Shown here: piece after piece, positions 21,701 through 40,859 of the stretch | Layout of the letters: each line of letters opens with the position of its first letter | How positions within the stretch are numbered: position 1 is the stretch's first letter | Assembly (NCBI GenBank): GCA_030692925.1 | Contig: JAUYBY010000057.1 | Coordinates: forward strand, 1-51,975 | Length of the DNA stretch: 51,975 nt | From: Candidatus Zixiibacteriota bacterium | GTDB taxonomy: Bacteria; Zixibacteria; MSB-5A5; RBG-16-43-9 | Direction of reading: 5' to 3' | The notes under the pieces: model-generated | What the model was told of the DNA's origin: nothing | The model's input: the letters and a program-made list of their open reading frames with translations, nothing else | The model's database searches: none | Translations under genes and position numbers: made by a program

Positions 21701-21730
21701 CTCTGACAAAGTACTTTTAGGAGGGATTTT

Positions 21731-23453: not shown

Positions 23454-23909
23454 ATGGAAACAGTCGATAACAGCTTTACGACGCCTACGGCGGGTTTGAC
23501 TCCCCGTAGGGAAGTTTTAAAATGGATTGACCACCCTTTGAAGAAAAGCGGGAAAAACCTTCTGATAGTTGTGCTTTTTCTCATGGTTGCGCCGGCTGTG
23601 GTTTTTTTCTCGACCAAAAGTCTTCTTTTCCTCTTCCTTTCGATTGTTTTTCTGCTGGGGTCACTTTCCACTTTCTTTTTACCCACCAGTTATGAGCTGT
23701 CAGAGAATTGCATAAAGGTGAAATTCTTTTTCAATACCCGAAAGATGGAATGGGGAAAATATCGCAGTTTTTACGTGGACAAAAACGGGGTTTTGCTTTC
23801 CCCTTTTGAAAAACCGTCCAGATTGGAGAATTTTCGCGGAATATATATAAGGTTTAATCAGAATAAAGATGAAGTTGTGGATTTCATTAAACAGAGGATA
23901 AAAAGCTAA
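23454..23909 (+). CDS. Membrane protein with two helices and a PH-like domain
   Basis: The protein has 151 residues. Two hydrophobic helices lie around residues 35-55 and 58-80. A soluble tail of about 70 residues contains 'YELSENCIKVKFFFNTRKMEWGKYRSFYVDKNGVLL', which looks like a bacterial PH-like beta-domain. GGAGGA occurs about 13 bases upstream, inside the previous gene. The early coding bases (about 23481-23511) contain a palindromic stretch CCTACGGCGG...CCCCGTAGG that resembles repeat sequence, so the N-terminus may have been reshaped. Function unknown. Confidence 0.65.
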   Translation: METVDNSFTTPTAGLTPRREVLKWIDHPLKKSGKNLLIVVLFLMVAPAVVFFSTKSLLFLFLSIVFLLGSLSTFFLPTSYELSENCIKVKFFFNTRKMEWGKYRSFYVDKNGVLLSPFEKPSRLENFRGIYIRFNQNKDEVVDFIKQRIKS

Positions 23910-24323
23910 ATGTCTTTCAGACACATCTTCTCCACCCAGCCCAAAGGAGCTAAAGAAACCGAAAAAGGGCTAACCCCTGAACAGCAGGAGATACTGGATA
24001 AGATCGCCAAGAAAGTGGTCTTATGGAAGATGTCTACGCCGGCGATACTGTTTTTAGAATCAGTAAAGCCTTTGAATTATATCGGCTCCCAGATGATGGT
24101 TTTCTTCGAGCCTTTTGTGCAGACCCTTTTCTCCTGGAAAGATTATGATGAGTTCAGAAAGATAATGGAAGAGCGGGAAAACGTCGAAAGGCTAATTCAG
24201 GCAATCGAAAAATTCGACGCTGAGGCTTTAACTAAGGAAAAAGAAGATAAAAAAAGAAGGAAAGAGGACCGGAAAACCAAAGGTAGAAGGACTTTGTGGC
24301 AGGTGATTACCGGGAGGGAATAA
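23910..24323 (+). CDS. Unknown protein with charged C-terminal tail, 137 residues
   Basis: The start ATG abuts the previous stop directly. The middle has 'TPAILFLESVKPLNYIGSQMMVFFEPFVQTLF', a mildly hydrophobic helix-rich segment, then an E/K-rich helix ending in a K/R tail (EDKKRRKEDRKTKGRR). I do not recognise the family. Its pattern suggests a peripheral membrane protein that works with the preceding membrane gene. The four genes from larE to here are spaced by zero to three bases. Confidence 0.6.
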   Translation: MSFRHIFSTQPKGAKETEKGLTPEQQEILDKIAKKVVLWKMSTPAILFLESVKPLNYIGSQMMVFFEPFVQTLFSWKDYDEFRKIMEERENVERLIQAIEKFDAEALTKEKEDKKRRKEDRKTKGRRTLWQVITGRE

Positions 24324-24330
24324 AGAGTAT

Positions 24331-24503: not shown

Positions 24504-24524
24504 GTAAAGTCATAAAGGAGTTCT

Positions 24525-26393
24525 ATGAAAGATTTAAAACCTGAAGATATCAATGTAATTGTAGCCACCGATTGTGGAAGCACTACCACTAAAGCCATTT
24601 TAATCGAGAAAAGAGGAGATGAATATCGTTTGATCGTGCGAGGTGAGGCTCCTACCACTGTTGAGGCTCCTTTTGAGGATGTGACTATGGGGGTTTTAAA
24701 TTCAGTGGCTGAGGTGGAGGAGCTTTCCGGAAGGAAGATTCTGGATGAGAAAGGAGCGATAATCTCTCCTGCTAAGGGAAATGTAGGCACTGATATTTAT
24801 GTCTCCACCTCCAGCGCAGGCGGCGGTTTGCAGATGATGGTCGCCGGCGTGGTCAGGAGCATGACTGCAGAAAGTGCTGAAAGAGCCGCCTTAGGAGCAG
24901 GCGCCATTGTGATGGACGTTATTGCATCGAATGATAAAAGGCTTCCTCACCAGCAAATTCAGAGGATCAGGCATCTAAGACCTGATATGATTGTGCTTTC
25001 TGGAGGAATCGACGGTGGCACAACCACCCACGTAGTTGAATTGGCTGAGCTTCTTTCTGCTGCAGACCCAAAACCCAGGCTGGGTATAGGGTATAGACTT
25101 CCGGTCATCTATGCTGGAAATGTCGACGCACGTGAAGCCATAAAAAATACTCTCGGAGATAAAGTTGACTTGACCATAGTGGACAATATCCGCCCGGTCC
25201 TGGAAAGGGAAAACCTCTTCCCTGCTCGTGAAAAGATTCACGATTTATTTATGGAGCACGTGATGGCTCAAGCTCCCGGTTACAAGAAGCTTATGACCTG
25301 GACCGATGCGCCGATTATGCCCACACCTGGGGCAGTTGGTTTGATTATGAAGAAAATTGCAGACGAAGAGGGGATCGAGGTGGTGGGTGTGGATATTGGT
25401 GGTGCTACTACGGATATCTTCTCCGTATTTCAGGGGACATTTAATAGAACAGTTAGCGCCAACTTAGGAATGAGCTATTCTGTATCCAATGTCTTCGCTG
25501 AGGCTGGCTTAAATAATGTGATGAGATGGGTTCCTTTTCACATGAACGAAAGGGATTTGAGAAACCGGGTTAAAAACAAGATGATCCGGCCAACCACCAT
25601 CCCCCAGACCATGGAGGACTTGATCTTCGAACAGGCAATTGCCAAAGAGGCATTGCGCCTTGCCTTTATCCAGCATAAATCTTTTGCCACGGTTTTAAAA
25701 GGGATCCAGCAGCAGAGGACCATAGCCGATGCCTTTGCCCAGACCGCAGGTGGTCTGACCCTGGTAAATATGATGACCTTAAATATGCTCATCGGCTCTG
25801 GAGGGGTTTTATCCCATGCTCCCAGAAGAGACCAGGCTGCTTTAATGTTAATAGACGGATTTATGCCGGAGGGGGTAACCAGGCTATCAGTAGACAGCAT
25901 CTTCATGATGCCCCAGCTCGGGGTTTTGTCCACTGTCCATACCAAAGCCGCAGTTGAGGTCTTCAACAAAGATTGTCTGATCCATTTAGGAACCTGCATC
26001 GCACCAGCAGGTGAATTAAAGGTCGATTACAGCTCTACGACCCGTAGGGAGGAAAAAGAGATTTTAAAATTTAAATTTCATATGCCCAATGGTGAAACAA
26101 TCGAAGGCACTTTAAAATATGCCGAGATGAAAAAATTCCCCTTAGGCTTTGACGACAAAGGGGTTCCGTTAAAGGCCAAAGCTACTTTAGAGCCGCTTAG
26201 AGGTTTTGACGTCGGCGCAGGAAAAGGAACCAAGGTGGAGAAAGAGATCTCCGGCGGCGTTACCGGAATTATTTTAGATGGCAGAGGAAGACCATTTAAC
26301 GTGCCAGTTGATGATAAAATCAGAGTGCAGAAGCTTAAAGAGTGGATGATAGCTTTGGAGATTTATCCGAAGGAGGCATTGGAGAGGTTGTAA
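24525..26393 (+). CDS. MutL-like (glutamate mutase accessory family) ASKHA ATPase
   Basis: The protein has 622 residues. 'ATDCGSTTTKAILIE' at residues 14-28 is the first phosphate loop of an ASKHA ATPase. A second one, 'VVGVDIGGATTDIFSVF', lies near residue 289. The overall sequence matches the MutL family known beside glutamate and ornithine mutases, whose role is thought to be reactivation or assembly. No mutase gene is present here. The gene instead precedes an unknown protein and the triplicated membrane module, suggesting a different client. AAAGGAG is seven bases before the ATG. Confidence 0.85.
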   Translation: MKDLKPEDINVIVATDCGSTTTKAILIEKRGDEYRLIVRGEAPTTVEAPFEDVTMGVLNSVAEVEELSGRKILDEKGAIISPAKGNVGTDIYVSTSSAGGGLQMMVAGVVRSMTAESAERAALGAGAIVMDVIASNDKRLPHQQIQRIRHLRPDMIVLSGGIDGGTTTHVVELAELLSAADPKPRLGIGYRLPVIYAGNVDAREAIKNTLGDKVDLTIVDNIRPVLERENLFPAREKIHDLFMEHVMAQAPGYKKLMTWTDAPIMPTPGAVGLIMKKIADEEGIEVVGVDIGGATTDIFSVFQGTFNRTVSANLGMSYSVSNVFAEAGLNNVMRWVPFHMNERDLRNRVKNKMIRPTTIPQTMEDLIFEQAIAKEALRLAFIQHKSFATVLKGIQQQRTIADAFAQTAGGLTLVNMMTLNMLIGSGGVLSHAPRRDQAALMLIDGFMPEGVTRLSVDSIFMMPQLGVLSTVHTKAAVEVFNKDCLIHLGTCIAPAGELKVDYSSTTRREEKEILKFKFHMPNGETIEGTLKYAEMKKFPLGFDDKGVPLKAKATLEPLRGFDVGAGKGTKVEKEISGGVTGIILDGRGRPFNVPVDDKIRVQKLKEWMIALEIYPKEALERL

Positions 26394-26400
26394 ACTTGAG

Positions 26401-26483
26401 TGGAGTATAAACCTTTAGGTTTATCTAAAAACTGTAGTTGCTCGATTCATCGAGCAAGAAAGCCAAATAAATTGGGCAACTAC
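26401..26483. repeat. Half family B repeat followed by family C repeat
   Basis: TGGAGTATAAACCTTTAGG (26401 on) is one half of family B. From 26434 to 26483 lies family C: ends GTAGTTGC and GCAACTAC are inverted, with inner hairpins GCTCGATTCATCGAGC and CCAAATAAATTGG. It fills the gap before the next gene. Confidence 0.75.
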
Positions 26484-26506
26484 ATTGAAATCTAAAAGGA
26501 GTTTTT

Positions 26507-27873: not shown

Positions 27874-27985
27874 AAATGCCGAAATGAAGAAACCTTTAAT
27901 GCCCGGAGGTTCTTTCTGAAGAAAAGAATTATTCTGCGGAGAAAATTTGAAATAGAGACCAGGGCAACTCATTTTTCTTTTTTAG

Positions 27986-28018
27986 CCACTAATTTACTTT
28001 TTAGATTAGTGGTTTTTT
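27986..28018 (+). terminator. Terminator-like hairpin in the leader of the membrane module
   Basis: CCACTAAT (27986-27993) pairs with ATTAGTGG (28005-28012), followed directly by TTTTTT (28013-28018). It is only 55 bases before the chosen start of the first module gene and downstream of the candidate promoter. It may be an attenuator or may simply end upstream transcription. Confidence 0.6.
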
Positions 28019-28072
28019 ATTTTTATAAATATGCTTGACAGGTTCAGAGTCGTAGGCCAGGAAAAGAAACAG

Positions 28073-29230
28073 ATGATCCGCTTTTCTTTTATTTTTCTTT
28101 TCACTCTTCTTTTATTCAGCTCCGCAACAGGTCAAGAGGCAACCCTTCCTCCTTCCCCACCTACAGATGTGATAGCTAAAGATACCCCCAATGACGCTGG
28201 AGGGAGTATAACCATAACCTGGAAGAAATCTCCGGATGACATCGGTGCAGTCAGGGAAGAAAATAAAGTCAAGGGGTACGAGATCCTGAGGTCAACTGAG
28301 AGTGGAGGAGAATACGAGGTATTAGGCAAGACCACGGCTGGCGCAGAAACCTATTTCGATTCTCACGCCAAAAATGGAGTGCTTTACTATTATAAAGTAA
28401 GGGCACTTGGTATGCAGTCGTTTTCGGAGTCTCTCCCCGCCACACCAGCTAAAGCCAAAGCCCAGTGGCTTGACTGGAGAAGAAAGTACACTTTTCTCCT
28501 GGCTCTAATCTTAGCTTTATCCATTGTCTATTTTATCAATCAGGCAAAATCCGGAAAACAGCTTTTCATCCGCAAGATAGCCGGGTTGGAGGCGGTAGAG
28601 GAAGCGGTGGGCAGGGCAACTGAGATGGGCAGAAAGATATTCTATATTCCTGGAATATCGGATATGGACAGTATGCAGACCATAGCCGCGGTCACCATTT
28701 TAGGCCAGGTGGCTAAGAAGACCGCAGAGTACGAGGCAAAACTGGAAGTTCCAACCTCTCGCTCCCTGGTTATGGTCTCCTGCAGGGAAACCATAAAAGA
28801 GGCTTATTCCAATGCCGGCAGGCCTGATCTTTACAACGAGGATATGGTCTATTATCTGACTGACGACCAGTTCGGCTATACTGCGGCAGTGGATGGGCTT
28901 TTTGTCAGGGAAAAACCGGCCGCGGTTTTCCTGCAGGGTCAGTTCTATGCCGAATCCTTAATCTTAGCTGAGACCGGCAATTACGTGGGAGCAATCCAGA
29001 TCGCAGGGACTGCTCAGCCAGCCCAGCTTCCTTTCTTCGTTGCTGCCTGCGATTACACCCTGATCGGGGAAGAGCTTTTCGCAGCCTCAGCCTATCTTTC
29101 CAGGGACCCGAAGCTTCTGGGAAGCTTAAAAGGGCAGGACGTGGGAAAATTTATTTTCCTTTTCTTTATAATAGTCGGCTCTTTATTTATAACCTTTGGA
29201 ATTTACGATTTGAGTTTCTTATTCCGTTAG
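28073..29230 (+). CDS. Module copy 1, gene A: secreted FN3 domain plus membrane-anchored DUF6754-like domain
   Basis: The protein has 385 residues. A signal peptide (1-20), an FN3 domain (about 27-128, with 'PSPPTDVIAKDT...GGSITITWKKSPDD' and 'YYYKVRAL'), a transmembrane helix (about 139-156), a cytosolic-side domain and a C-terminal helix (about 359-380) are in order. The domain carries 'AVEEAVGRATEMGRKIFYIPGI' and 'ACDYTLIGEELFAASAYLS', shared with two paralogues at 31441 and 34846. I associate this domain with DUF6754 from memory, unverified. I chose ATG 28073, not 28031, since the signal peptide then lies at the N-terminus and AGGA precedes it. Confidence 0.75.
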   Translation: MIRFSFIFLFTLLLFSSATGQEATLPPSPPTDVIAKDTPNDAGGSITITWKKSPDDIGAVREENKVKGYEILRSTESGGEYEVLGKTTAGAETYFDSHAKNGVLYYYKVRALGMQSFSESLPATPAKAKAQWLDWRRKYTFLLALILALSIVYFINQAKSGKQLFIRKIAGLEAVEEAVGRATEMGRKIFYIPGISDMDSMQTIAAVTILGQVAKKTAEYEAKLEVPTSRSLVMVSCRETIKEAYSNAGRPDLYNEDMVYYLTDDQFGYTAAVDGLFVREKPAAVFLQGQFYAESLILAETGNYVGAIQIAGTAQPAQLPFFVAACDYTLIGEELFAASAYLSRDPKLLGSLKGQDVGKFIFLFFIIVGSLFITFGIYDLSFLFR

Positions 29231-29251
29231 TTTTTCAGGAGAAGACTTAAG

Positions 29252-29899
29252 ATGCGCAGAGAAGTCCCTTTAGCTATAACTGCCATAGTTGGATTTGCCT
29301 TGATAATCGTCTATTTCATACCCCATCCTCCTTTCAACCACTCTAGAGATTTTTTTGAGGACCTGTTCTTCATTATAGCCGCCTTCGCTATCTGGCTGGG
29401 GTGTTTGAATCTTCTGAAAGTAAATGCGGATAAAGTCTATCGCCAGAAAAAAGGCTGGCTTTTCAGCGTGGTGGTCTGGTTTGGTTTTTTCCTGATGGTT
29501 ATTGTAGGTTTCTGGGAGGGAAGGGGCTTTATGAATCCGGGCACCACTTTTTATTACCTGTATGACAAGCTCTATTATCCTTTGAATGCTACCATGTTTT
29601 CCATTTTAGCTTTCTTTGTAGCCTCAGCCTCTTACCGGGCATTCAGAGCCAGGAACAAGGAAGCAACTATTCTTTTGATCGCGGCTTTGTTTGTGATGTT
29701 AGGCCGGGTTCCTTTTGGATATTATCTTTCCTCCTGGCTTCCAGAGGGGTGGAGATTAGGAAATATAACTGACTGGATAATGGATTTCCCTCAAACCGCT
29801 GCGCAACGGGCTATAATGATAGGGATAGCCCTGGGAATAGTTTCCTCCTCTCTCCGGGTTTTGTTAGGACTAGAGAGGACTTTTGCCAGCGGAGAATGA
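29252..29899 (+). CDS. Module copy 1, gene B: multi-pass membrane protein
   Basis: The protein has 215 residues. About five to six hydrophobic helices are visible, starting at 'LAITAIVGFALIIVYFIPH'. Conserved pieces shared with copies 2 and 3 are the MRREVP-type start, 'YYPLNATMFSILAFFVASASYRAFRARN', and the end 'RAIMIGIALGIVSSSLRVLLGLERTF'. GGAGAAG is in the 21-base gap before the start. The family is unknown to me. The repeated arginines after the hydrophobic segment (YRAFRAR) suggest a conserved cytosolic loop. Confidence 0.75.
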   Translation: MRREVPLAITAIVGFALIIVYFIPHPPFNHSRDFFEDLFFIIAAFAIWLGCLNLLKVNADKVYRQKKGWLFSVVVWFGFFLMVIVGFWEGRGFMNPGTTFYYLYDKLYYPLNATMFSILAFFVASASYRAFRARNKEATILLIAALFVMLGRVPFGYYLSSWLPEGWRLGNITDWIMDFPQTAAQRAIMIGIALGIVSSSLRVLLGLERTFASGE

Positions 29900-29921
29900 A
29901 ATAGGTTTTTGAGGAGAGAAG

Positions 29922-30764
29922 ATGAATTTTTTAGAAAAGCTCTTAGCCCTTGACCGCAGGATAATCTTTCTTTTCATCGCTATTGCCGTAGCCTTGCCTT
30001 TGTTTTTTACGGTCAAATTACATATTGAGGTTACGCCGGTTGTCAGGAATTTACATAATGCCCTGGAAGCCTTACCTCCCGGGTCTAAGGTCTTGGTATC
30101 GTTGGATTATGATCCGGGCTCTATGCCTGAATTACAGCCTATGGCTGAGTCTTTTTTCCGCTACTGCTTTATGAGGGATTTAAAGATAATCATCATAGGG
30201 CTGTGGCCCAACGGGCCTATTCAGGCTAATTCAGCTTTAGAGGTCATCCTGAATGAACCTGACATAAAGAAGAAAAACCCAAAGTATGGCATAGATTACG
30301 TGAACTTAGGATATACTGCCGGAAACGAGGTGGTTATCGAGAGGATGGGAAGCGATATTCCTGTCACCTTTCCTAAGGATTACAGTGGAAGTAAAACTGA
30401 GGACCTTCCCTTGATGAAGGGGGTAAAGAATTTCAACAATATAGATTTTGTCTATAACCTTTCAGCTGGCTATCCTGGCACGGTAGAGTGGGTCTTATTC
30501 GGGGTTGACCCTTACAAGATAAAGTTAGGTGCTGGAAACACCGCAGTCCAGGCTCCTCAGATTTACCCTTATCTCAACAGCGGACAACTGGTCGGACTTT
30601 TAGGCGGTATGAAGGGCGGTGCAGAGTTTGAAATCGCCACCGGGCACCCGGCTAAAGCGGTAAAATTTATGTTCTCTCAATCAGTGTCCCATGCGCTTAT
30701 CTGTTTTTTCATCCTGATCGGTAATTTCGCTTATTTTGCTACCAGAAAGAAAAAAGGTGCATAA
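29922..30764 (+). CDS. Module copy 1, gene C: double-anchored protein with soluble domain
   Basis: The protein has 280 residues. Helix one (about 14-32) follows a conserved start 'MNFLEKLLALDRRIIFLFIA'. A soluble domain follows with 'GSKVLVSLDYDPGSMPELQPM', 'DYSGSKTEDLPLMKGVKNF' and 'PYLNSGQLVGLLGGMKGGAEFE', all kept in copies 2 and 3. A final helix (about 250-272) ends in a lysine tail. No enzyme motif is recognised. A GAGGAGAG ribosome-binding site precedes the start. The aspartates and glycines in the domain are conserved across copies. Confidence 0.75.
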   Translation: MNFLEKLLALDRRIIFLFIAIAVALPLFFTVKLHIEVTPVVRNLHNALEALPPGSKVLVSLDYDPGSMPELQPMAESFFRYCFMRDLKIIIIGLWPNGPIQANSALEVILNEPDIKKKNPKYGIDYVNLGYTAGNEVVIERMGSDIPVTFPKDYSGSKTEDLPLMKGVKNFNNIDFVYNLSAGYPGTVEWVLFGVDPYKIKLGAGNTAVQAPQIYPYLNSGQLVGLLGGMKGGAEFEIATGHPAKAVKFMFSQSVSHALICFFILIGNFAYFATRKKKGA

Positions 30765-30778
30765 ATGAAGAGGAGAAG

Positions 30779-31399
30779 ATGATGGAAACGATCGGGATCT
30801 GGATAGCGGCTTTACTCACCTTAGGGATTTTCAGCTTTTTGTATAAGGACAATCCATTCTATAAGTTTTGCGAATCTTTATTTGTCGGGATCTCAGCAGG
30901 ATACTGGTTTGTCACCACTTTCTGGCAGGTCTTTATGCCCAAGCTGGCAGATAACTTAGTCGCTGGCAGGCTCTATTACATAATTGGAGGCGTCTTCGGC
31001 GTGCTGATGCTCCTACGCCTTTTCCCAAAGATCGGCTGGCTCTCCAGATGGTCCTTAGCCTTGGTAGTGGGAACGACTGCCGGCCTTTATTTTACCCGTT
31101 ACCTGGTGAGCAATGGAATGATCCAGGTGCAGAACACCATCATCCCTCTTTATGTAAAAGGTAATCTATCTCAGACCATAGGGAATTTAGTTATTGTGAT
31201 TGGAACCTTTAGCGGTTTAATCTATTTTTTCTTTTCCAAGGAGCACAAGGGCGCCTTTGGAGGCTTAGCCAAGCTGGGGATCTGGTTTTTGATGCTCTCC
31301 TTTGGCGCCTCTTTCGGGTATACGGTTATGTCCAGGATGTCTCTTCTCATCGGCAGGATGGACTTCCTTTTAGGAACCTGGTTGGGGTTGATTCGATAG
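30779..31399 (+). CDS. Module copy 1, gene D: multi-pass membrane protein
   Basis: The protein has 206 residues. Around six hydrophobic helices are seen. Copies 2 and 3 share 'FSFLYKDNPFYKFCE', 'LIYFFFSKEHKGAFG' and 'SFGASFGYTVMSRMSLLIGRM'. The spacing to gene C is 14 bases, with GAGGAGAAG before a double ATG (30779 or 30782). The charged and glycine residues conserved inside membrane helices suggest a functional channel or pore, but that is inference. Confidence 0.75.
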   Translation: MMETIGIWIAALLTLGIFSFLYKDNPFYKFCESLFVGISAGYWFVTTFWQVFMPKLADNLVAGRLYYIIGGVFGVLMLLRLFPKIGWLSRWSLALVVGTTAGLYFTRYLVSNGMIQVQNTIIPLYVKGNLSQTIGNLVIVIGTFSGLIYFFFSKEHKGAFGGLAKLGIWFLMLSFGASFGYTVMSRMSLLIGRMDFLLGTWLGLIR

Positions 31400-31440
31400 A
31401 AATTAAGGCATGTAAATATAGAGGTTAGAGAAAGGATCAT

Positions 31441-32649
31441 ATGAGGTATAAAAACCTGAACAGATTGTTGATTTTGACGTTTTTTTTCTTTTTCCTAATT
31501 TTACCTTTAGGCCAGATTCTGGCTCAAGAGGATACCCTGCCCCCAGCTCCCCCCACCGAAGTAAGAGCTTCTGATACCCAGAACGATAATGGTCATTCCA
31601 TCACCATAACCTGGAAGCTTTCCGGAGATGATGGAGCAGGTAAGAAAGATGTAGTGGCATACGAGATTTTAAGGTCAGAATCACCTGCTGGCGAGTTTGT
31701 AGTACGGGGGATGGTGCCTGCTGGTAATAACACCTATCAGGATCGAGGGGCTAAAGAAAAGGAAGATAAAAACTATTTCCATCCTTACCATGATTTCTAT
31801 TATAAAGTCAGAGCCAAGACTTTAAATTCCTATTCAGAATCCGGGGTGGCTGGACCTGCCCAAGCTTACGGACAGTGGTTCCATTTAGGCAAACTCCCGG
31901 TATTTGTGGGAACTTTAGCCTTTACCATTATGGTCCTGGCTTTCATCAGCCTGGCACGTAAGGGTAAAAAGTTTTACGTAAGGCCATTGGCAGGTATAGA
32001 TGCGGTGGATGATGCTATCGGTAGAGCTACGGAGATGGGAAGACCTATACTTTACATTTTGGGCCTGGGTTCTGCGGCAGATATCGCCACTATCGCTTCA
32101 TTCACCATCCTGAATAGAATTGCCAAAAAGACAGCTGAGCATAAAACCAAAATAATCGTTCCCTGCAATGACCCGATCGTTATGTCTGTGGCTCAAGAGA
32201 CGGTAAAAGCAGGATATCTGGATGCTGGCAGGCCGGACATGTACCAGGAGGAAAATATCTTTTATATCACCTCAATGCAGTTTGCCTATGTGGCTGCGGT
32301 TAATGGTATAATGCTTAGAGAAAAAACTGCAACCAATTTTTATTTAGGGAAATTCTATGCCGAGTCTTTGATCTTAGCTGAGACCGGTTCTGTGGCCGGT
32401 TCTATCCAGATCTCCGGCACAGACGAGATCGCCCAGATACCTTTCTTTGTGGCGGCAACTGACTATACCCTGATCGGAGAAGAGCTTTATGCTGCATCAG
32501 CCTATTTAGGAAGGGAGCCTTTGCTTTTGGGTGCCTTAAAGGCACAGGATTTAGCCAAAGCCATTGTGATGATAAGCTTAGCCTCAGGGGCTGTGGCAGC
32601 CAGTTTTCATTTAGATTTCTTTTTGAGATTGTTTACAGTTCAAATGTAA
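31441..32649 (+). CDS. Module copy 2, gene A: FN3 domain plus DUF6754-like domain
   Basis: The protein has 402 residues, with the same layout as the copy 1 protein at 28073: signal peptide (ending LAQ near residue 29), FN3 ('PPAPPTEVRASDT...SITITWKLSGDDG'), a helix near 155-175, the conserved 'AVDDAIGRATEMGRPILYILGLG' and 'TDYTLIGEELYAASAYLGREP', and a last helix. The charged loop inside FN3 (AKEKEDKNYFHPYH) is longer than in copy 1. It follows D of copy 1 by 41 bases. Confidence 0.75.
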   Translation: MRYKNLNRLLILTFFFFFLILPLGQILAQEDTLPPAPPTEVRASDTQNDNGHSITITWKLSGDDGAGKKDVVAYEILRSESPAGEFVVRGMVPAGNNTYQDRGAKEKEDKNYFHPYHDFYYKVRAKTLNSYSESGVAGPAQAYGQWFHLGKLPVFVGTLAFTIMVLAFISLARKGKKFYVRPLAGIDAVDDAIGRATEMGRPILYILGLGSAADIATIASFTILNRIAKKTAEHKTKIIVPCNDPIVMSVAQETVKAGYLDAGRPDMYQEENIFYITSMQFAYVAAVNGIMLREKTATNFYLGKFYAESLILAETGSVAGSIQISGTDEIAQIPFFVAATDYTLIGEELYAASAYLGREPLLLGALKAQDLAKAIVMISLASGAVAASFHLDFFLRLFTVQM

Positions 32650-32668
32650 AAATTAAGGAGTAAGTTTA

Positions 32669-33295
32669 ATGCGCAGACAACTTCCCATCTTGATAGTTTT
32701 CGTGTCCGGGGTCTTTATGGTCATCCAATATTTTATACCTCACGAGTCGTTCGAGTTTATATATGAATATGCTATGGACTGGATAATAATCATTGGGATC
32801 TTCGCCATGCTATTAGGCTTATGGAGCTTGACCCGGGCCAGCGTGAGCAAGGTTCAAGCTAAAGCTCCAGGCTGGGGTTTTTCGGTGATGACCCTTGTCG
32901 GACTGGCTACCATGCTTTTTTTAGGCTTCTATAAAGGGAACAAAAGCATAGCTGAAGGCACCTTCTTTATGGATTTATTCTGGTACATCTATACCCCTAT
33001 TCAGGCAACTATGTTCTCCTTATTAGCTTTCTATATCGCTTCAGCCGCTTATCGATCCTTCAGGGTGAGAACTGTTTTAGCTACCATTCTTCTGGTAACC
33101 GCTTTAATCATTATGTTGAGATTGATCCCCTTAGGACCTATCTCTGGTGTAAACCAATGGCTGGCTTCATGGATTTTGACTGTCCCGAATATGGCAGCCA
33201 AAAGGGCTATCTGGATCGGGGTGGGTTTAGGTGCCACAGCTACTGCTTTGAAAATTATATTCGGGATCGAAAGAGCTTATATGGGGAAGGATTAA
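32669..33295 (+). CDS. Module copy 2, gene B: multi-pass membrane protein
   Basis: The protein has 208 residues and is the paralogue of the protein at 29252. Shared pieces include the MRRQLP start, 'YTPIQATMFSLLAFYIASAAYRSFRVR' and the end 'AAKRAIWIGVGLGATATALKIIFGIERAYMG'. AAGGAG is close to the start. About five helices. No enzymatic motif. Confidence 0.75.
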   Translation: MRRQLPILIVFVSGVFMVIQYFIPHESFEFIYEYAMDWIIIIGIFAMLLGLWSLTRASVSKVQAKAPGWGFSVMTLVGLATMLFLGFYKGNKSIAEGTFFMDLFWYIYTPIQATMFSLLAFYIASAAYRSFRVRTVLATILLVTALIIMLRLIPLGPISGVNQWLASWILTVPNMAAKRAIWIGVGLGATATALKIIFGIERAYMGKD

Positions 33296-33345
33296 TAGGC
33301 TATAGCCTAAAGGCTAAAGGTAATAGTTGAATGGAGGAATGAAAG

Positions 33346-34167
33346 ATGAATTTTTATGAGAGGTTGATGCAGTTAGACCGGAGATGGATCTATTTAGGGG
33401 TAGCTATCGCAGTAACCATACCGGTTCTGGCACCCTTTAAAGTTCCAGTTTATATCACACCGGAGGCCAAAGCAGTCTACGAGTTCGTGGAGAACACCAA
33501 GCCAGGGGAGATAATCTTTCTGGCTATAGATTATGACCCCAATGCTATGGCGGAATTACATCCTATGGCAAGAACCATAATGAGACAATCCTTTTCCAGA
33601 GGGATAAGACTTATAATCTCAGCTTTGTCTCAGAATGGACCCGGTATGGCAGAACAACTGATCTCGCAGATCTCCAAGGAATACAATAAAAAGAATGGGA
33701 TGGATTATGTCTATTTAGGATATAAGCCGTATCCTGGGATTACCATCCTGGCTATGGGTCAGAATTTCCGCATTCCATTCCCCACCGATTATTATGGCAC
33801 ACCTTTGGACTCTTTACCGATGATGGATGGGGTAAGAAACTATGACGATGTAAAAGGGATAATCTCCATTGTCGCAGGGAACATAGCCGAATACTGGATA
33901 AACTATGCTAATGGACGTTATAAGGCGAAAGTGTTTTTTGGAGTAACCGGGGTTATGACTGCAGATTATTATCCTTTTCTTCAATCCGGACAGCTCCTCG
34001 GTCTCTTAGGTGGACTGAAAGGTGCTTCGGAATATGAGAGATTAGCTAAACAGGAAGGGGTAGCAACAGAGGGGATGAGCATTCAAACTGTGGCTCATTT
34101 AGTGGTCATCGCCTTTATCGTTGTTGGAAACATCGGATTTTTTATGTCCAAAAAGAAAAAAAGATAA
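33346..34167 (+). CDS. Module copy 2, gene C: double-anchored protein with soluble domain
   Basis: The protein has 273 residues and is the paralogue of the protein at 29922. It starts 'MNFYERLMQLDRRWIYLGVA', has 'GEIIFLAIDYDPNAMAELHPM', 'DYYGTPLDSLPMMDGVRNY' and 'PFLQSGQLLGLLGGLKGASEYE', and a C-terminal helix before a KKKKR tail. Compared with copies 1 and 3 the 'KTEDLP' box reads 'PLDSLP', so that short motif is the most diverged part. GGAGG precedes ATG 33346. Confidence 0.75.
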   Translation: MNFYERLMQLDRRWIYLGVAIAVTIPVLAPFKVPVYITPEAKAVYEFVENTKPGEIIFLAIDYDPNAMAELHPMARTIMRQSFSRGIRLIISALSQNGPGMAEQLISQISKEYNKKNGMDYVYLGYKPYPGITILAMGQNFRIPFPTDYYGTPLDSLPMMDGVRNYDDVKGIISIVAGNIAEYWINYANGRYKAKVFFGVTGVMTADYYPFLQSGQLLGLLGGLKGASEYERLAKQEGVATEGMSIQTVAHLVVIAFIVVGNIGFFMSKKKKR

Positions 34168-34178
34168 GGAGAATAGCG

Positions 34179-34817
34179 ATGGTTACAGATCTAAATACCG
34201 CCATTTGGAATACCTTAGCCGCATTTTTAACCTTTTGCATCTTCTCTTTTCTATATAAAGATAACCCCTTTTATAAGATCGCCGAGCACATTGTGGTGGG
34301 TGTCTCTGCCGGTTATTTTGCCGTGATCCTTTACTGGAACGGCCTGGTACCCAAACTCTGGAACCCGGTGGTAAAACAGGGGAAATGGTATTATCTGATC
34401 CCTGGATTGTTAGGGTTGATAATGTGGACCCGTTTTTCCAAGAAATATGCCTGGATCTCACGTTTTTCCATCTCCTTCTATATGGGGATCGCTACCGGAG
34501 TGGCAGTGCCTCTTTATATGCAAAACTTTGTGATCAGACAGCTAAGCTCAACTATGTTGCCAGTCCACTTTAAAAACTCAGTGGGATTTTTTAACCTTTT
34601 GATAATCGTGGGCGTCTTATGTGCCTTGATCTACTTCTTTTTCTCCAAGGAGCACAAGGGCGCTATGGGCTCAGCCGCCAGGGTGGGTATCTGGACCTTG
34701 ATGGTCGGTTTTGGCGCCGGATTCGGCTTGACCGTTATGGGCAGGGTGTCCCTGCTGATAGACAGGGTTATATTTTTGAAGAATTATTTTACATCGATTT
34801 TTGGTCATATCCTGTAA
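34179..34817 (+). CDS. Module copy 2, gene D: multi-pass membrane protein
   Basis: The protein has 212 residues and is the paralogue of the protein at 30779. 'FSFLYKDNPFYKIAEHIVVGVSAGY', 'LIYFFFSKEHKGAMG' and 'GFGAGFGLTVMGRVSLLIDRV' are conserved. In this copy the last motif has D in place of G (LLIDR against LLIGR). It is 28 bases before gene A of copy 3, so the copies are directly adjacent. Confidence 0.75.
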   Translation: MVTDLNTAIWNTLAAFLTFCIFSFLYKDNPFYKIAEHIVVGVSAGYFAVILYWNGLVPKLWNPVVKQGKWYYLIPGLLGLIMWTRFSKKYAWISRFSISFYMGIATGVAVPLYMQNFVIRQLSSTMLPVHFKNSVGFFNLLIIVGVLCALIYFFFSKEHKGAMGSAARVGIWTLMVGFGAGFGLTVMGRVSLLIDRVIFLKNYFTSIFGHIL

Positions 34818-34845
34818 TTTTGAAACTTATTGTGTTTGGTGACTG

Positions 34846-35721
34846 ATGAAAAGTTCTGCATTTCGCAAGCTTTTTAGCCTTTTTTCTTCATTAATTTTTC
34901 TCTTTTTGTTTTATTCTCCAGCTCAAGGAGCAGAGTCTTCTGCCCCAGCCTGGTTTGATAAAAATCGAGTCAATGTTTTCATAGTCCTGGCTTTGTTTTT
35001 CGCCTTTGTAATCTATTTCATAAATCGAGCCCAGAAGGGGAAATCGCTTTTCGTAAGAAGGATCCCAGGACTGGATGCCATAGAGGAAGCAGTGGGAAGG
35101 GCGACTGAGATGGGCAGGCCAATCCTTTATATCTCCGGGATAGAGGATATGGATAACCTGCAGACCGTTGCCAGCATGATAATCTTAGGAAACGTGGCGG
35201 AGATGGCCGCCGCTTATGAAGTCCCGCTTTTGGTTCCCGTGTGCCAGCCCTTCGTAGTGACAGTGGCTGAGGAATCAGTTAAACAGGGTTATGCCAAGGC
35301 AGGAAAACCAGAGGCCTATAACCCTAATAACGTCCGCTTCCTTACCAGCGAGCAGTTCGCCTACGCCAGCGGGGTTAACGGGATAATGCTCCGGGAAAAG
35401 CCTGCGGCAAATTTCATGTTCGGAAGTTTTTATGCTGAATCTCTGCTTATGGCAGAAACCGGCTTTTCAACTGGAGCCATTCAGGTAGCAGGGACAGCCA
35501 ACATTCACCAGCTCCCTTTCTTTGTGGTGGCTTGCGATTATACCCTGATCGGAGAGGAGCTTTTTGCAGCCTCAGCTTATTTATCCAAAGAACCTAAGCT
35601 CTTAGGAAGTCTAAAAGGCTCAGATTTAGCCAAATTGTTGATAATGATATATCTGGTGTTAGGAGTTTTGTTCGTGACTTTCGGGATAGACATATTCCTT
35701 CGCTGGGTTTTTGTCCAGTAG
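34846..35721 (+). CDS. Module copy 3, gene A: DUF6754-like domain without FN3
   Basis: The protein has 291 residues. A signal-like helix (about 10-25, ending AQGAES) is followed almost at once by a transmembrane helix (residues about 45-62, FIVLALFFAFVIYFI), then the shared domain with 'AIEEAVGRATEMGRPILYISGI' and 'ACDYTLIGEELFAASAYLSKEP', and a C-terminal helix. The FN3 domain of copies 1 and 2 is missing, about 100 residues shorter. Shine-Dalgarno pairing is weak. Confidence 0.75.
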   Translation: MKSSAFRKLFSLFSSLIFLFLFYSPAQGAESSAPAWFDKNRVNVFIVLALFFAFVIYFINRAQKGKSLFVRRIPGLDAIEEAVGRATEMGRPILYISGIEDMDNLQTVASMIILGNVAEMAAAYEVPLLVPVCQPFVVTVAEESVKQGYAKAGKPEAYNPNNVRFLTSEQFAYASGVNGIMLREKPAANFMFGSFYAESLLMAETGFSTGAIQVAGTANIHQLPFFVVACDYTLIGEELFAASAYLSKEPKLLGSLKGSDLAKLLIMIYLVLGVLFVTFGIDIFLRWVFVQ

Positions 35722-35730
35722 AGGAGAAAG

Positions 35731-35793
35731 GTAGCGGAGGTCTTTAGATCTCCATGTGGCAAGAAAAGATGGAAGGCTGAAGCCTTCCGCTAC
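35731..35793. repeat. Dispersed repeat, family A (GTAGCGGA...TCCGCTAC)
   Basis: The outer ends GTAGCGGAGG and CCTTCCGCTAC are inverted. The inner hairpins are GGTCTTTAGATC and GGAAGGCTGAAGCCTTCC. It ends ten bases before the start of the next gene, leaving no Shine-Dalgarno in front of it. Confidence 0.8.
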
Positions 35794-35802
35794 AAAAAAA
35801 CT

Positions 35803-36447
35803 ATGAAAGGTTCATTTTTAATCTTATTACTCTCAACTTTATCCATCGGTTTTTTTCATTCCTTAGCTCCGGACCACTGGGTTCCTTTTGTGATGATTGG
35901 AAGGTCATCCAACTGGTCTAAAAGGAAACTGACCTGGGTGACCTTTTTGTCCGGAATCGGCCATGTTGGCTCCTCAATCTTACTCGGAAGTGTCGGAATA
36001 TTATTAGGCTTAACCCTTTCAAAATTGAAAAGCCTAGAAAGTTCCAGAGGCCAGATCGCTCTTTACCTTTTAATCGGTTTTGGAGTTGCTTATGCCCTAT
36101 GGGGGTTAAGGCAAGCAAAAAAACATAATCACCATCACCATCTGAATGAAAAGTTGGCTCACAAGAAGGCGATAACCGTCTGGGCTTTGATGGCAATATT
36201 TGTCTTAGGACCCTGTGAGCCTTTGATTCCGTTGATGTTTTTAGCCACCCAGTTTGGCTGGAAAGGCATCTGGGGAATCTCAATTGCCTTTTCGATTGTA
36301 ACAATTTTTATGATGATAACCCAGACCCTTTTAGCTTATTCCGGAGTTAAATTGATAAAGACTGATTTCGCGGAAAAGTATACCCATTCGATTGCGGGTG
36401 CAGTTATTGCTTTGACCGGAGTGTTTGTTTTGTTTTTAGGGATTTGA
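35803..36447 (+). CDS. Nickel/cobalt transporter-like (HupE/NicO-type) membrane protein
   Basis: The protein has 214 residues and about six helices. 'FFHSLAPDHWVPFV' near residues 18-31 is an HxxxxDH-type motif of nickel/cobalt transporters, and a histidine-rich loop (HNHHHH, about residues 107-112) may bind metal. The later 'LGPCEPLIPLMF' is also a family-like feature. It interrupts the third module between genes A and B. No Shine-Dalgarno is visible, since the family A repeat ends just before the ATG. The link to larE is only a nickel theme. Confidence 0.65.
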   Translation: MKGSFLILLLSTLSIGFFHSLAPDHWVPFVMIGRSSNWSKRKLTWVTFLSGIGHVGSSILLGSVGILLGLTLSKLKSLESSRGQIALYLLIGFGVAYALWGLRQAKKHNHHHHLNEKLAHKKAITVWALMAIFVLGPCEPLIPLMFLATQFGWKGIWGISIAFSIVTIFMMITQTLLAYSGVKLIKTDFAEKYTHSIAGAVIALTGVFVLFLGI

Positions 36448-36448
36448 T

Positions 36449-36566
36449 GTAGGGGAGGTCTTCAGACCTCCATTTATTCAGGCACGTGGAAGGCTGAAGT
36501 CTTCGCCAGGATCCTGTGGACAAGACCTTGTCCGAATTTGGATCCATAGGAACGGCCTTCCGCTAC
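36449..36566. repeat. Family A repeat with nested insertion
   Basis: Starts GTAGGGGAGGTC at 36449 and ends CCTTCCGCTAC at 36566. The GGAAGGCTGAAG...GGCCTTCC hairpin carries extra sequence at its tip, with TCGCCAGGATCCTGTGGAC and a second GGATCC, about 50 bases in all. Confidence 0.7.
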
Positions 36567-36746
36567 GAAAAAAACACAAGATGGTAGAACAGACATTTCC
36601 TACGGATCCGTTTCTCGGACTTGTCTGTTCGGCAGGGTCAGAGAGCAAAGCCTGGCGCCCTACGGGCGGGCTGGCTCGTAGCCACAGGAATGTCTGACCT
36701 ACCAGAGTGGACAGCCACGAGGGCTATCCCTACTAAAGAAGGATAC
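36567..36746. repeat. Hairpin-rich spacer, GGTAG...CTACC element
   Basis: GGTAGAACAGACA (from about 36582) and TGTCTGACCTACC (to about 36702) are imperfectly inverted. The inside carries TTTCCTACGGATCCGTTTCT, as in the family B insertions. The other half of the spacer is GC-rich sequence with a GCCCTACGGGC palindrome. Confidence 0.5.
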
Positions 36747-37361
36747 ATGCGTAGAGAAGTCCCTGTAATAATCTGTTTTTTAGCTGGAGCTCTTTTTATC
36801 GGGAACTATTTTTCCCCTAAGCTTCAGCCTGTTGCTCAAGTGGTTAATCAATGGGCTATAATTTGCATTGCCTTTGCCTATGTCTTAGGTGTTGCCAACA
36901 TCTTCAGGATAAATTATCAGGTGATAACCAGAAAGGGAAAAGATTGGATTTATAAGGTAGTTTTAATAGTCGGACTTATCTTGATGATCTATCTGGGGAT
37001 TTTCAGGGGAGTCAAAGAGGGAACAGCCTTCAACTGGGTTTTTATGAACGCCATTTATCCTATGCAAGCAACTATGTTTGCCCTTTTAGCCTTTTATATA
37101 GCGTCAGCCGCATTCAGGGCTTTCAGGATAAGGTCCTGGGAAGCAGCTTTATTAGGAATCACTGCTGTTTTAGTGATGATCGGAAGGGTGCCATTGGGTG
37201 AAGCTGTCTGGAAAGAGTTCCCACCTTTTACCGAATGGATTATGAACGTGCCACAACTGGCAGCAAAAAGAGCCATAATGATAGGAGCGGCCCTTGGTGC
37301 TATCTCCACCGGCTTGAAAGTCTTGATCGGATTGGAGAAAACTTATATGGGCGGAGAGTGA
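36747..37361 (+). CDS. Module copy 3, gene B: multi-pass membrane protein
   Basis: I place the start at ATG 36747 (MRREVP), where the two paralogues start and with AGAAGG a few bases before; the longer open frame upstream runs through a repeat. The protein has about 204 residues and five to six helices. 'IYPMQATMFALLAFYIASAAFRAFRIR' and the end 'AAKRAIMIGAALGAISTGLKVLIGLEKTYMGG' are conserved with 29252 and 32669. It is separated from gene A by the transporter-like gene. Confidence 0.75.
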   Translation: MRREVPVIICFLAGALFIGNYFSPKLQPVAQVVNQWAIICIAFAYVLGVANIFRINYQVITRKGKDWIYKVVLIVGLILMIYLGIFRGVKEGTAFNWVFMNAIYPMQATMFALLAFYIASAAFRAFRIRSWEAALLGITAVLVMIGRVPLGEAVWKEFPPFTEWIMNVPQLAAKRAIMIGAALGAISTGLKVLIGLEKTYMGGE

Positions 37362-37574
37362 TTTTTATATGAGGTCTTCGAATCAGTGGAAGTTATCGGT
37401 CGGGCAAAGGTGCCCGACCTACGTAGCTGGATTTGTAGTTGCTCGATTTATCGAGCATCAAGCCCAATGAATTGGGCAACTACCTTGAAGCAGTCGTAGG
37501 CGTCCGCCTGAGGCGGACCAGCCCAGTCCAGGATGGATCCATTCGGACTAAACGAGTTTATCAGAAGTTCCTTT
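37362..37574. repeat. Hairpin and family C spacer
   Basis: Contains GGTCGGGCAAAGGTGCCCGACC (about 37399-37420), family C (37435-37483; GTAGTTGC ends with inner hairpins GCTCGATTTATCGAGC and CCCAATGAATTGGG) and GTCCGCCTGAGGCGGAC (about 37502-37518). It lies between genes B and C of copy 3, unlike the 22- and 50-base gaps of copies 1 and 2. Confidence 0.75.
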
Positions 37575-38411
37575 ATGAGAAACTTTTTCGAAAAACTTGA
37601 AAAGTTAGACCGCAGGGTGATCTTTATCTTTGTAGCGATTGCCCTGATATTACCTTTATTTTTCCCTTTGAATATCAAGTTCTCAGTCACCCCTCCGGTT
37701 AAAAGCTTCTATGATACTATAGAATCTTTACCTCCAGGCTCAAAAGTCCTTTTAAGCGCAGATTACGACCCTGGCTCTATGCCCGAGCTCTGGCCTATGC
37801 ACCTGGCAGCACTCAGGCAGATGTGCAAAAGAAACATCAAGATAATCTCCACCCAGCTCTGGGCAACTGGCTCTCCTTTAGCTGAAAGGGCCTTTAACCT
37901 GGTAGCAGTTGGTGAGTATCACAAACAGTATGGGATTGATTTTGTGAATTTAGGTTTTAAGGAGGGTCGGGAGGTGGTGATGGTCTCAATGGGGAATTCA
38001 ATCCCCCAGACTTTTCCAGCAGATTATCATGGTAACAAGACCGAAGACCTGCCCATTATGAAAGGTGTAAAAAACTTCAGCGACTTAGCTATGATCGTTA
38101 ATATCTCCGGCGGCCTTCCCGGAACAAAGGAATGGGTATTGCAGGTTGTGTCCCGTTATCACATAAAGCTTGTCTCAGGCTGTACTGCAGTAGCCGCCCC
38201 GGAGTTTTACCCTTATCTACAATCCGGACAGTTAGTGGGACTTTTAGGCGGAATGAAAGGCGCAGCCGAATACGAGCAGATGGTTGGCGTTACTGGATTG
38301 GGTAAGAGGGGAATGGATTCACAGTCCGTAGCTCATCTGGTGATCTTTTTCTTCATCATCATAGGCAATATCGCTTATTTTTCAATGAAATTGATGAAAA
38401 AGGAGAAATAG
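37575..38411 (+). CDS. Module copy 3, gene C: double-anchored protein with soluble domain
   Basis: I place the start at ATG 37575 (MRNFFEKLEKLDRR), in line with the two paralogues; an upstream in-frame ATG at 37533 reads out of repeat DNA. The protein has 278 residues. 'GSKVLLSADYDPGSMPELWPM', 'DYHGNKTEDLPIMKGVKNF' and 'PYLQSGQLVGLLGGMKGAAEYE' match copy 1 most closely. An N-terminal helix and a C-terminal helix before KLMKKEK are conserved. Only weak Shine-Dalgarno pairing is seen. Confidence 0.75.
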   Translation: MRNFFEKLEKLDRRVIFIFVAIALILPLFFPLNIKFSVTPPVKSFYDTIESLPPGSKVLLSADYDPGSMPELWPMHLAALRQMCKRNIKIISTQLWATGSPLAERAFNLVAVGEYHKQYGIDFVNLGFKEGREVVMVSMGNSIPQTFPADYHGNKTEDLPIMKGVKNFSDLAMIVNISGGLPGTKEWVLQVVSRYHIKLVSGCTAVAAPEFYPYLQSGQLVGLLGGMKGAAEYEQMVGVTGLGKRGMDSQSVAHLVIFFFIIIGNIAYFSMKLMKKEK

Positions 38412-38417
38412 TAGAAC

Positions 38418-39095
38418 ATGCCTTCATCTGAATTAATCGGTACCTGGGTTGCCGCAGGCCTGACCTTATTCTGTTTTAGCTTCCTGTATAAGGATAATCC
38501 CTTCTATAAATTTGCTGAGCATCTCTATGTAGGGATCTCTGCCGGCTACTGGGTCTCTATGGAATATCACAATGTGTTCAGGCCCAATCTGTGGGACCCT
38601 TTGATGAGGCTTGACTTGAATATCCTTTTCTCCTTCCCCCGGGCCGGGTTTGCCTTTATGTGGCAGTCTTTAATATTGATAATTCCTTTTGCCTTCGGGA
38701 TTTTATTTTTTACCCGGTTTACCAAAAATTTTGCCTGGCTTTCCCGCTGGTCTATGGCTTTAATCATCGGAATTTTCGCCGGGATAGCTATCATAGGATA
38801 TAGCACTGGTGACTTAATCCTTCAGATCCGCGCCAATTTGCTACCCTTATGGACCGGCAACTGGCTCTCTTCTTTGAATAACATCCTTCTGACCATCGGG
38901 GTTCTCACCTCTTTAATCTATTTTTTCTTCTCCAAAGAGCACAAAGGCGCCTTAGGGGCTGGAGCCAAAGTCGGCATCTGGTTTCTGATGATCTCCTTTG
39001 GCGCCTCCTTCGGGTATACGGTTATGTCCCGTATGTCTCTTCTTATCGGCAGGATCTATTTCATATTCGGCGAGTGGCTCGGTTTGATAAAATGA
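38418..39095 (+). CDS. Module copy 3, gene D: multi-pass membrane protein
   Basis: The protein has 225 residues, the longest of the three D proteins. It carries an extra hydrophobic stretch near residues 65-90 (FPRAGFAFMWQSLILIIPF). 'FSFLYKDNPFYKFAEHLYVGISAGYW', 'LIYFFFSKEHKGALG' and 'SFGASFGYTVMSRMSLLIGRIYF' are conserved with 30779 and 34179. It starts six bases after gene C and is followed by a terminator. Confidence 0.75.
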   Translation: MPSSELIGTWVAAGLTLFCFSFLYKDNPFYKFAEHLYVGISAGYWVSMEYHNVFRPNLWDPLMRLDLNILFSFPRAGFAFMWQSLILIIPFAFGILFFTRFTKNFAWLSRWSMALIIGIFAGIAIIGYSTGDLILQIRANLLPLWTGNWLSSLNNILLTIGVLTSLIYFFFSKEHKGALGAGAKVGIWFLMISFGASFGYTVMSRMSLLIGRIYFIFGEWLGLIK

Positions 39096-39127
39096 AAAAG
39101 CCCCCAAAATCTTGAGGGCTTTTTTTC
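39096..39127 (+). terminator. Rho-independent terminator after the membrane module
   Basis: AAAAGCCC (39096-39103) pairs with GGGCTTTT (39116-39123), followed by TTT. It lies directly after the D3 stop and is followed by the convergent lipoprotein gene. Confidence 0.85.
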
Positions 39128-39149: not shown

Positions 39150-40859
39150 TTATTTTTTCTTGAACAGGGTGGAGCTTAAAGCAACTTTCTTGGTCAAGAC
39201 CATTCCTCCGCCTCTGGGGTCATTGTCAGTAACTGAAATTGTAGCGCTCTTGATGGTGGTGTCAGTTGGTGCATTAAAGAACAAGCCAGAGGATTCTCCA
39301 TAGCCATTGGTTATACTGGGTGAGCCAGTGATCGTGCCTGACGAGGCAGTCGCAGAAAGGGAATGACCGCCCAAGGGGTTACCTGAACGATCCTTTATTA
39401 AAACGGTGAAAGGCTCAGTAGTTCCGTACATCACAGAAGCCACTATATCTATAAGACAATTTTTGTAATAGGCAAAACCGGTCAGGAAATTTACTTGAAC
39501 TGTAGCTGAAGACCAGTCTGCTTTGGCAGTCAGGTTAGAGACCGCGCCTATTCCATCATCCGGTGAAACCGGGGAATAATCCCGGGTCAATATCTGGCTC
39601 ACCAGCTCGGTCTCAAAAAGCGAAGCATTTATTCCATCCTGAGTAGTCCCGGAAGCACAGGTTCCGAAATCCGTCTCCATCTTAACCTGTGTTCCCCCTA
39701 CCACAAAATTCCCATTCAGATCCACAACCCTGATGATTACGTCCCCTTTTGATACCCCATCTGCCACAAGAGAAAGAGGATAGGTCAGGAATGTGGTCGT
39801 ATCTGGTGGACCCGAGACGATGATTAGGACGGTGTTGGACACAGTCCCTCCAGCAGTCGAGGCGTAAACATATGCTAACCCATCGTTTCTGGGCTCGCCC
39901 GAATGATAGACTGATGTGGCTAATCCGCCGGAAGTTATAGCATAGGCATCCACCATCCCTTCCTCTGTTCCAAAATAGACTGCGGTACTATTCTGAACCG
40001 GATTTCCGTAGATATCGTCTACCATCGCTAAGACCTCAGAGGTAACATTCACGACATCCCATCCCCGGATATTCAAAGGCTTTGCTCCTAAGGAGAGATA
40101 AGCTGGAGGACCGGCATTAATGGCCACCCGGGTGACATTGGAAAAAATGGTTCCTGCTTCAGCTCTCAGCTCTACTGTTCCTGAGATGGTACCGCTATTC
40201 AAGGTCACTACTGCCTGGCCTGACTCCATGGTGTAAGCAGTATCCGGACCATAACCTTTATTCTCAAGATTTTCTCCTCCATCCGGACCATTTAAAATCC
40301 TGAAAATTATTTGCTTCCCAGCACCTACTTTATTTCCCAACGAATCATATCCAGTTGCCACCAAAACTGCTGATTCAATTCCTCCAGTCCCTTTAACCTG
40401 AATTGAAGGCCTGAGCGTGTTGAATTCTATGCTGGCAATCGTGCCGCTGGAACCAGATCCAGGGGAAGTTACGCGCAAAGTCGTGGTCAGGCTGTCCCCG
40501 CTGGTAAGTTTTGCTTTCAAAGTGACTGTGCCGGTATCTGAAGATACGAAATAGGAAGAGGCAGTTCCCGAAGTGTCAGTCATGTCATAAACATCTCTGA
40601 AGGAGCCTAAGGATGCAGGTGAGGCTGAGAAATTAACCCGCACGTTATTATAGGGGTTATTATCCTGATCCGTCACTTTTGCCTGGACTAAGCTTGAATC
40701 TCCTGTTTGCATAGAGGTTTTAAGGGCAGTGAATGTTTTCAAAACCGTTTGAGTGCCCGAGGTGGGAGAGGTAGAATTTTTCTTACACCCGGAAATGAGA
40801 AGAACCATAACCAAGGCTACAAAAATTACCCCGAAAACAAAAAAAGCTTTGTTCCTCAT
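39150..40859 (-). CDS. Lipoprotein with Ig-like (Big_1/invasin-type) repeats
   Basis: About 569 residues. The N-terminal hydrophobic run ends in the lipobox LISGC, then KKNSTSPTSG. Repeats of about 100 residues contain 'VQAKVTDQDNNPYNNVRVNFSASPASLGSF' and 'GTASSYFVSSDTGTVTLKAKL', typical of bacterial Ig-like Big_1 domains, with at least three to four along the chain. I place the start at ATG 40859, five bases after AAAGGAG on the minus strand, rather than GTG 40865. It is an exported, lipid-anchored protein, probably adhesive or structural. It faces the membrane module convergently. Confidence 0.8.
   Translation of the reverse strand: MRNKAFFVFGVIFVALVMVLLISGCKKNSTSPTSGTQTVLKTFTALKTSMQTGDSSLVQAKVTDQDNNPYNNVRVNFSASPASLGSFRDVYDMTDTSGTASSYFVSSDTGTVTLKAKLTSGDSLTTTLRVTSPGSGSSGTIASIEFNTLRPSIQVKGTGGIESAVLVATGYDSLGNKVGAGKQIIFRILNGPDGGENLENKGYGPDTAYTMESGQAVVTLNSGTISGTVELRAEAGTIFSNVTRVAINAGPPAYLSLGAKPLNIRGWDVVNVTSEVLAMVDDIYGNPVQNSTAVYFGTEEGMVDAYAITSGGLATSVYHSGEPRNDGLAYVYASTAGGTVSNTVLIIVSGPPDTTTFLTYPLSLVADGVSKGDVIIRVVDLNGNFVVGGTQVKMETDFGTCASGTTQDGINASLFETELVSQILTRDYSPVSPDDGIGAVSNLTAKADWSSATVQVNFLTGFAYYKNCLIDIVASVMYGTTEPFTVLIKDRSGNPLGGHSLSATASSGTITGSPSITNGYGESSGLFFNAPTDTTIKSATISVTDNDPRGGGMVLTKKVALSSTLFKKK

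Follow-up and report, generated by a model that had tools for sequence, protein, structure and literature searches.

DUF6754 (PF20539), one of the known families closest to the locus studied here, is catalogued in Pfam as a domain of unknown function, under a name that conveys nothing of an A-B-C-D module or of Q-M-P partners. Other known systems close to it are the GlmL/MutL family (PF13941, NF040745), the N-terminal barrel-sandwich domain of RnfC and NqrA (PF13375, PF05896), and the inner-membrane envelope machines Tol-Pal and ExbB-ExbD-TonB. Protein A is a clear DUF6754 member and M fits the MutL model, but M differs from GlmL in an extra C-terminal region, a sub-equivalog score, genomes without a mutase and ties to membrane genes. 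P carries the RnfC/NqrA domain type, but combines it with another middle domain and a KOW motif, without a recognised FeS-binding region, and no RnfABDEG or NqrBCDEF partners were found beside it by Pfam on B, C and D or by PDB sequence searches. Tol-Pal and ExbB-ExbD-TonB are likewise envelope machines and are genomic neighbours of the system in four lineages, but no sequence similarity of A-D to TolQRA or ExbBD was found, and Pfam detected no MotA_ExbB or ExbD domain in A1, B1, C1, D1, A2 or C2. As a preliminary description of this DNA had supposed, no system with such a gene set is named in Pfam, NCBIfam, PADLOC, PDB or the literature searched, in which no paper found names either DUF6754 or the A-B-C-D module. 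A defence system was rejected, as PADLOC gave no model match to any known anti-phage defence system. The function of the system appears undescribed to date.

On the + strand of the window, which is the whole stretch of 51,975 nucleotides analysed, R-Q-M-P occupies 23454-27634 and a tandem array of three A-B-C-D modules comes next (28031-39095). All twelve A-D reading frames were found in the constant order and strand previously reported. The features are as follows.

23454..23909, + strand: R, small membrane protein of 151 aa, no Pfam family; same position ahead of Q-M-P in Fermentibacteria (L097, L103, L109, L112) and others
23910..24323, + strand: Q, 137 aa, motif ...ESVKPLNYIGSQ..., no family
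24525..26393, + strand: M, 622 aa, MutL-family (ASKHA-type) putative ATPase, PF13941 at 428 bits
26507..27634, + strand: P, 375 aa, with a barrel-sandwich of RnfC type, an alpha/beta region in the middle and a KOW motif at the C terminus
27984..28014, + strand: between P and A1, a terminator-like hairpin that carries a T-run, by consensus match only
28031..29230, + strand: A1 (likely start 28073), Fn3, TM, DUF6754 (beta-alpha)6 domain and TM; PF20539 at 410 bits
29252..29899, + strand: B1, multi-pass membrane protein with about 6 TM
29922..30764, + strand: C1, TM, (beta-alpha)6 domain and TM, from the AF2 model and conservation
30779..31399, + strand: D1, multi-pass membrane protein with about 5-6 TM
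31441..32649, + strand: A2, PF20539 at 375 bits; by tree, orthologous to the final, m3-type module of other Zixibacteria
32669..33295, + strand: B2
33346..34167, + strand: C2
34179..34817, + strand: D2
34846..35721, + strand: A3, without Fn3
35803..36447, + strand: inserted membrane ORF of 214 aa, UreH/nickel-transporter-like by eye, outside the module, short hairpins on its flanks
36747..37361, + strand: B3
37575..38411, + strand: C3
38418..39095, + strand: D3
39095..39124, no strand assigned (listed match on the - strand): strong terminator-like hairpin at the D3 end, 13 pairs and T-run, by consensus match only

Gaps within modules 1 and 2 span 11-50 bases, and those between modules 41 and 28 bases. 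Module 3 is split between A3 and B3 by the inserted ORF, which is unrelated, has no Pfam match and is missing from the other modules. The hairpins 5' of A1 and 3' of D3 suggest that the ABCD array may form one long transcription unit separate from R-Q-M-P. The A1 frame opens at 28031; yet the in-frame ATG at 28073, from which the gene had been drawn earlier, is the more plausible start, since a signal peptide follows it and AlphaFold confidence is low upstream. Paralogues inside each family are 38-56% identical, well above chance. Two of the sequence boxes proposed as constant in every copy do not hold: in place of QATMFxLLAFYIAS, B1 has NATMFSILAFFVAS, and in place of GRxSLLI, D1 and D3 have SRMSLLI. 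Convergent with the array, the - strand at 39150-40865 encodes a large protein in which bacterial Ig-like and invasin D3 domains occur.

The genes upstream of the array are part of the same system. Q-M-P-A-B-C-D recurs as a single block in Zixibacteria, Fermentibacteria and Planctomycetota, and Q sits before M in these three as well as in WOR-3 and Cloacimonadota. In other lineages, Q-M-P lies apart from A-B-C-D, or P-A apart from B-C-D, within one genome, and in the latter arrangement C was present in 6/6 tested genomes with A. A and P co-occur in Planctomycetota even where they are unlinked: 45 genomes have both, 5 only A, 3 only P and 146 neither (Fisher p = 3e-35, a value that overstates independence because the genomes are related). 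One planctomycete (G300) has Q-M-P and neither A nor C. The recurrent order and the co-occurrence show that A-B-C-D is evolutionarily tied to Q-M-P. Taken with the trees described below, they reveal a seven-gene system that is inherited jointly and whose cassettes were duplicated whole long ago; the membrane machine comprises seven or eight genes in total. An FtsY-like gene (by eye) lies directly upstream of P-A, with B-C-D elsewhere, at two Planctomycetota loci (L163, L159).

M was found in 16/16 genomes of other lineages. Outside the phylum it is 59-70% identical to the window copy, versus about 31-54% for A-D, and there is mostly one strong M match per genome versus several ABCD modules. 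This strong constraint suggests that M may be a housekeeping engine common to several membrane cores. Since M belongs to Pfam MutL, matching PF13941 over its full length, we considered whether it reactivates a B12-dependent glutamate mutase in the manner of GlmL, with ABCD as an associated membrane part. M reaches 229 bits against the NCBIfam GlmL equivalog, far under the cut-off of 475, and the glutamate mutase subunit PF06368 has no match over cut-off in 20 genomes, the window's and 19 others. GlmL/glutamate mutase function is thus largely refuted and extremely improbable; by its sequence matches, M is a MutL-family putative ATPase, not GlmL. Among P members, RnfC_N was detected in 9/19 (best E 1.2e-6), Biotin_lipoyl in 6 and KOW in 1, while the P of the window matches Biotin_lipoyl only, below cut-off. 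P as a lipoylated carrier was rejected, as no lysine is invariant at the hairpin.

The preliminary description had counted three modules. Three in tandem is correct for the window, but two further ABCD modules, on contigs C75 and C99, bring the genome total to five. To compare modules, 121 complete A-B-C-D modules were collected across loci. Pairwise distance matrices of the four families are correlated (r = 0.73-0.85; largest shuffle 0.13). In the concatenated tree, Zixibacteria arrays contain three paralogous module types, m1, m2 and m3; the m1 and m3 clades are intact in all four single-gene trees, and m2 is intact in the B and D trees and takes in additional members in those of A and C. 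The four gene trees agree, and whole cassettes were therefore duplicated together: A-B-C-D was inherited and duplicated as a unit and then diverged, as had been proposed from the window, and the trees give no sign of the separate histories that would have spoken against it.

Window module 1 falls in m1 and module 2 in m3; in the arrays of other Zixibacteria, their orthologues are the first and the last module, respectively. Module 3 is a separate old lineage that groups weakly with the C75 copy. A recent local triplication is ruled out by these trees. Modules of several phyla lie on each side of the deepest split (group I/II) of the concatenated tree, which was midpoint-rooted and is compatible with gene transfer between lineages, and this duplication therefore most likely predates the phyla involved. 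The preliminary description had overlooked the five modules, duplications far older than the genome, and the membership of R-Q-M-P.

DUF6754 occurs in all 132 sampled genomes of the window's phylum at 1-6 copies each, with five matches in the window's own genome. It was also found in 50/199 sampled Planctomycetota genomes and in 5/5 and 7/7 genomes of two small phyla, and in 0/14 well-known control genomes, an absence that helps explain the lack of study. Among named loci, the closest belong to Candidatus Zixiibacteriota, which makes Zixibacteria the probable phylum of the window. More than ten phyla have A next to B, C and D. ABCD synteny was observed in records labelled, as deposited for these MAGs, Latescibacterota, WOR-3/Stahlbacteria, Coatesbacteria, Eisenbacteria, Gemmatimonadota, Planctomycetota, Caldithrix, Fermentibacteria/Aegiribacteria, Poribacteria, Edwardsbacteria and Marinimicrobia. 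That a seven-gene system is retained by every sampled member of one phylum, and is shared by over ten, makes a central role in envelope building or maintenance likely. Because the carriers include planctomycetes, some of which have been cultured and for which transposon genetics is published (PMC10632474), this old puzzle can now be put to the test.

The assignment of A to DUF6754, suggested by the preliminary description, is borne out by Pfam scores of 410 bits for A1 and 375 bits for A2 against a cut-off of 27. The AlphaFold2 model of A (pLDDT 90) contains a signal peptide, an Fn3 domain and then a (beta-alpha)6 domain between two TM helices. The Fn3 domain is carried by A1, where both fold and sequence identify it, and A2, and it took all the listed PDB and viral matches in a Foldseek search with the A model. 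C (pLDDT 95, pTM 0.90) is modelled as TM, (beta-alpha)6 and TM. By the positive-inside rule, the alpha/beta domain is probably cytosolic in A and probably periplasmic in C. Although both proteins share this TM-(beta-alpha)6-TM arrangement, profile comparison matched the TM helix only, and homology between A and C is not claimed. B, C and D have no Pfam family above cut-off, and B and D have no relatives among PDB sequences by sequence search.

The A domain has about 40 invariant residues, many of them polar, including R195, T197, E198, R293, E308, D341, E347, E348, D370 and K373. Invariant residues of C include D153 and E70 in its domain and H257 and N268 in its last TM helix. The C model had no PDB fold match at E < 1e-3, and its weak matches are Rossmann-like enzymes and glycosyltransferases. 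The polar invariant residues of A, these weak matches and the RnfC_N-type barrel-sandwich of P would fit a membrane-bound multi-subunit enzyme. Catalysis would fall to the alpha/beta domains of A on the inside and C on the outside, B and D would bind substrate or conduct electrons or ions, and P would work as a docking subunit of RnfC/NqrA type. We consider such an enzyme rather unlikely: A and C lack a known active-site motif or cofactor-binding family, P lacks a recognised FeS or flavin domain, and another role would be needed for M.

Genomic neighbours in other lineages bear on the role of the system. Tol-Pal genes lie 3' of M-(256 aa)-P at two Zixibacteria loci (L065 and L073), ExbB-ExbD-ExbD-TonB genes 3' of ABCD in WOR-3 and Fermentibacteria, and ExbB-ExbD-ExbD genes 5' of Q-M-P-ABCD in Gimesia-like Planctomycetota; in all four lineages they lie on the same strand as ABCD or M-P. 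ExbB falls within 5 kb in four of about fourteen lineages, for which chance is near 1e-4 at ~1.1 ExbB genes/Mb in these genomes, with the neighbour chosen post hoc because it was the most frequent one; most lineages, and the window itself, lack ExbBD/Tol adjacency. PlsX-FabH adjoins Q-M in WOR-3 and PlsX-Fab genes adjoin ABCD in Phycisphaerae. PlsX/Fab and glycine-cleavage genes are each recurrent neighbours in two lineages, the latter as P-protein genes directly upstream of Q-M (or R-Q-M-P) in WOR-3 (L180, L182) and Fermentibacteria (L096, L109, L112). As glycine-cleavage genes also adjoin Q-M in two lineages, the neighbours point more than one way.

Our best reading, a tentative one because the evidence for the envelope-machine step consists of family membership and neighbours, is that the system forms a cell-envelope complex with a motor-like or transport role. 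The three modules would supply an envelope machine not described before with paralogous cores in the inner membrane, each with a predicted conserved alpha/beta domain on the cytosolic face (A, often with a periplasmic Fn3), another on the periplasmic face (C), and a predicted multi-pass membrane core (B and D). Cytosolic M, a MutL/ASKHA putative ATPase aided by P and Q, would dock on the A domain and drive a conformational change via B/D to the C domain outside, so as to move or assemble an envelope component, be it a lipid, a glycan or a lipoprotein, and would probably do so beside the machinery of Tol-Pal or ExbBD-TonB. Each paralogous module would be a core with its own substrate, and all would share one M-P-Q engine. 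In this model, we infer the ATPase activity of M, the topology of A and C, and any complex; that C has no transporter fold is a point against transport. It is possible, if doubtful, that this constitutes a new class of ATP-driven envelope machine, with a MutL-family engine (M-P-Q) serving several paralogous A-B-C-D cores whose diversification predates the split of the phyla; such a machine would be universal among Zixibacteria and widespread across FCB and PVC bacteria.

Two other readings draw on the same neighbourhoods. DUF4388 adjoins ABCD in WOR-3 and a STAS-domain gene lies between B and C in the C75 module, which, with the Fn3 of A, would suit an envelope sensing or signalling complex whose extracytoplasmic Fn3 and C sense state and whose A domain relays it to cytosolic partners; we find this quite improbable, as there is no consistent linkage to a kinase, cyclase or regulator and the very invariant polar core of A looks more like a catalytic or motor part. 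DUF4388 together with ExbBD-TonB in WOR-3, and ExbBD-TonB in Fermentibacteria, might instead indicate an apparatus for surface motility or adhesion that draws its energy from ExbB/ExbD-type channels. Universality in a whole phylum with modest genomes, conservation of M at housekeeping level and the lack of a consistently linked surface filament or adhesin gene make such an apparatus very unlikely.

The window also contains scattered intergenic palindromes of several kinds that look like a repeat family. They share a leader, GTGGAG or TGTAG, and have variable stems; they lie at 21730-21760, 24443-24473, 26400-26430 and 41042-41072, at 26433-26475, 37434-37476 and 40979-41021, and at 24412, 27693 and 41143. 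An identical 18-bp hairpin, GGAGGTCTTCAGACCTCC, occurs three times, at 36454, 45809 and 45961 (chance expectation for the pattern, 0.25). A 45-bp direct repeat, 98% identical, links 36486-36530, inside the interrupted module 3, with 41076-41120, past the end of the array.
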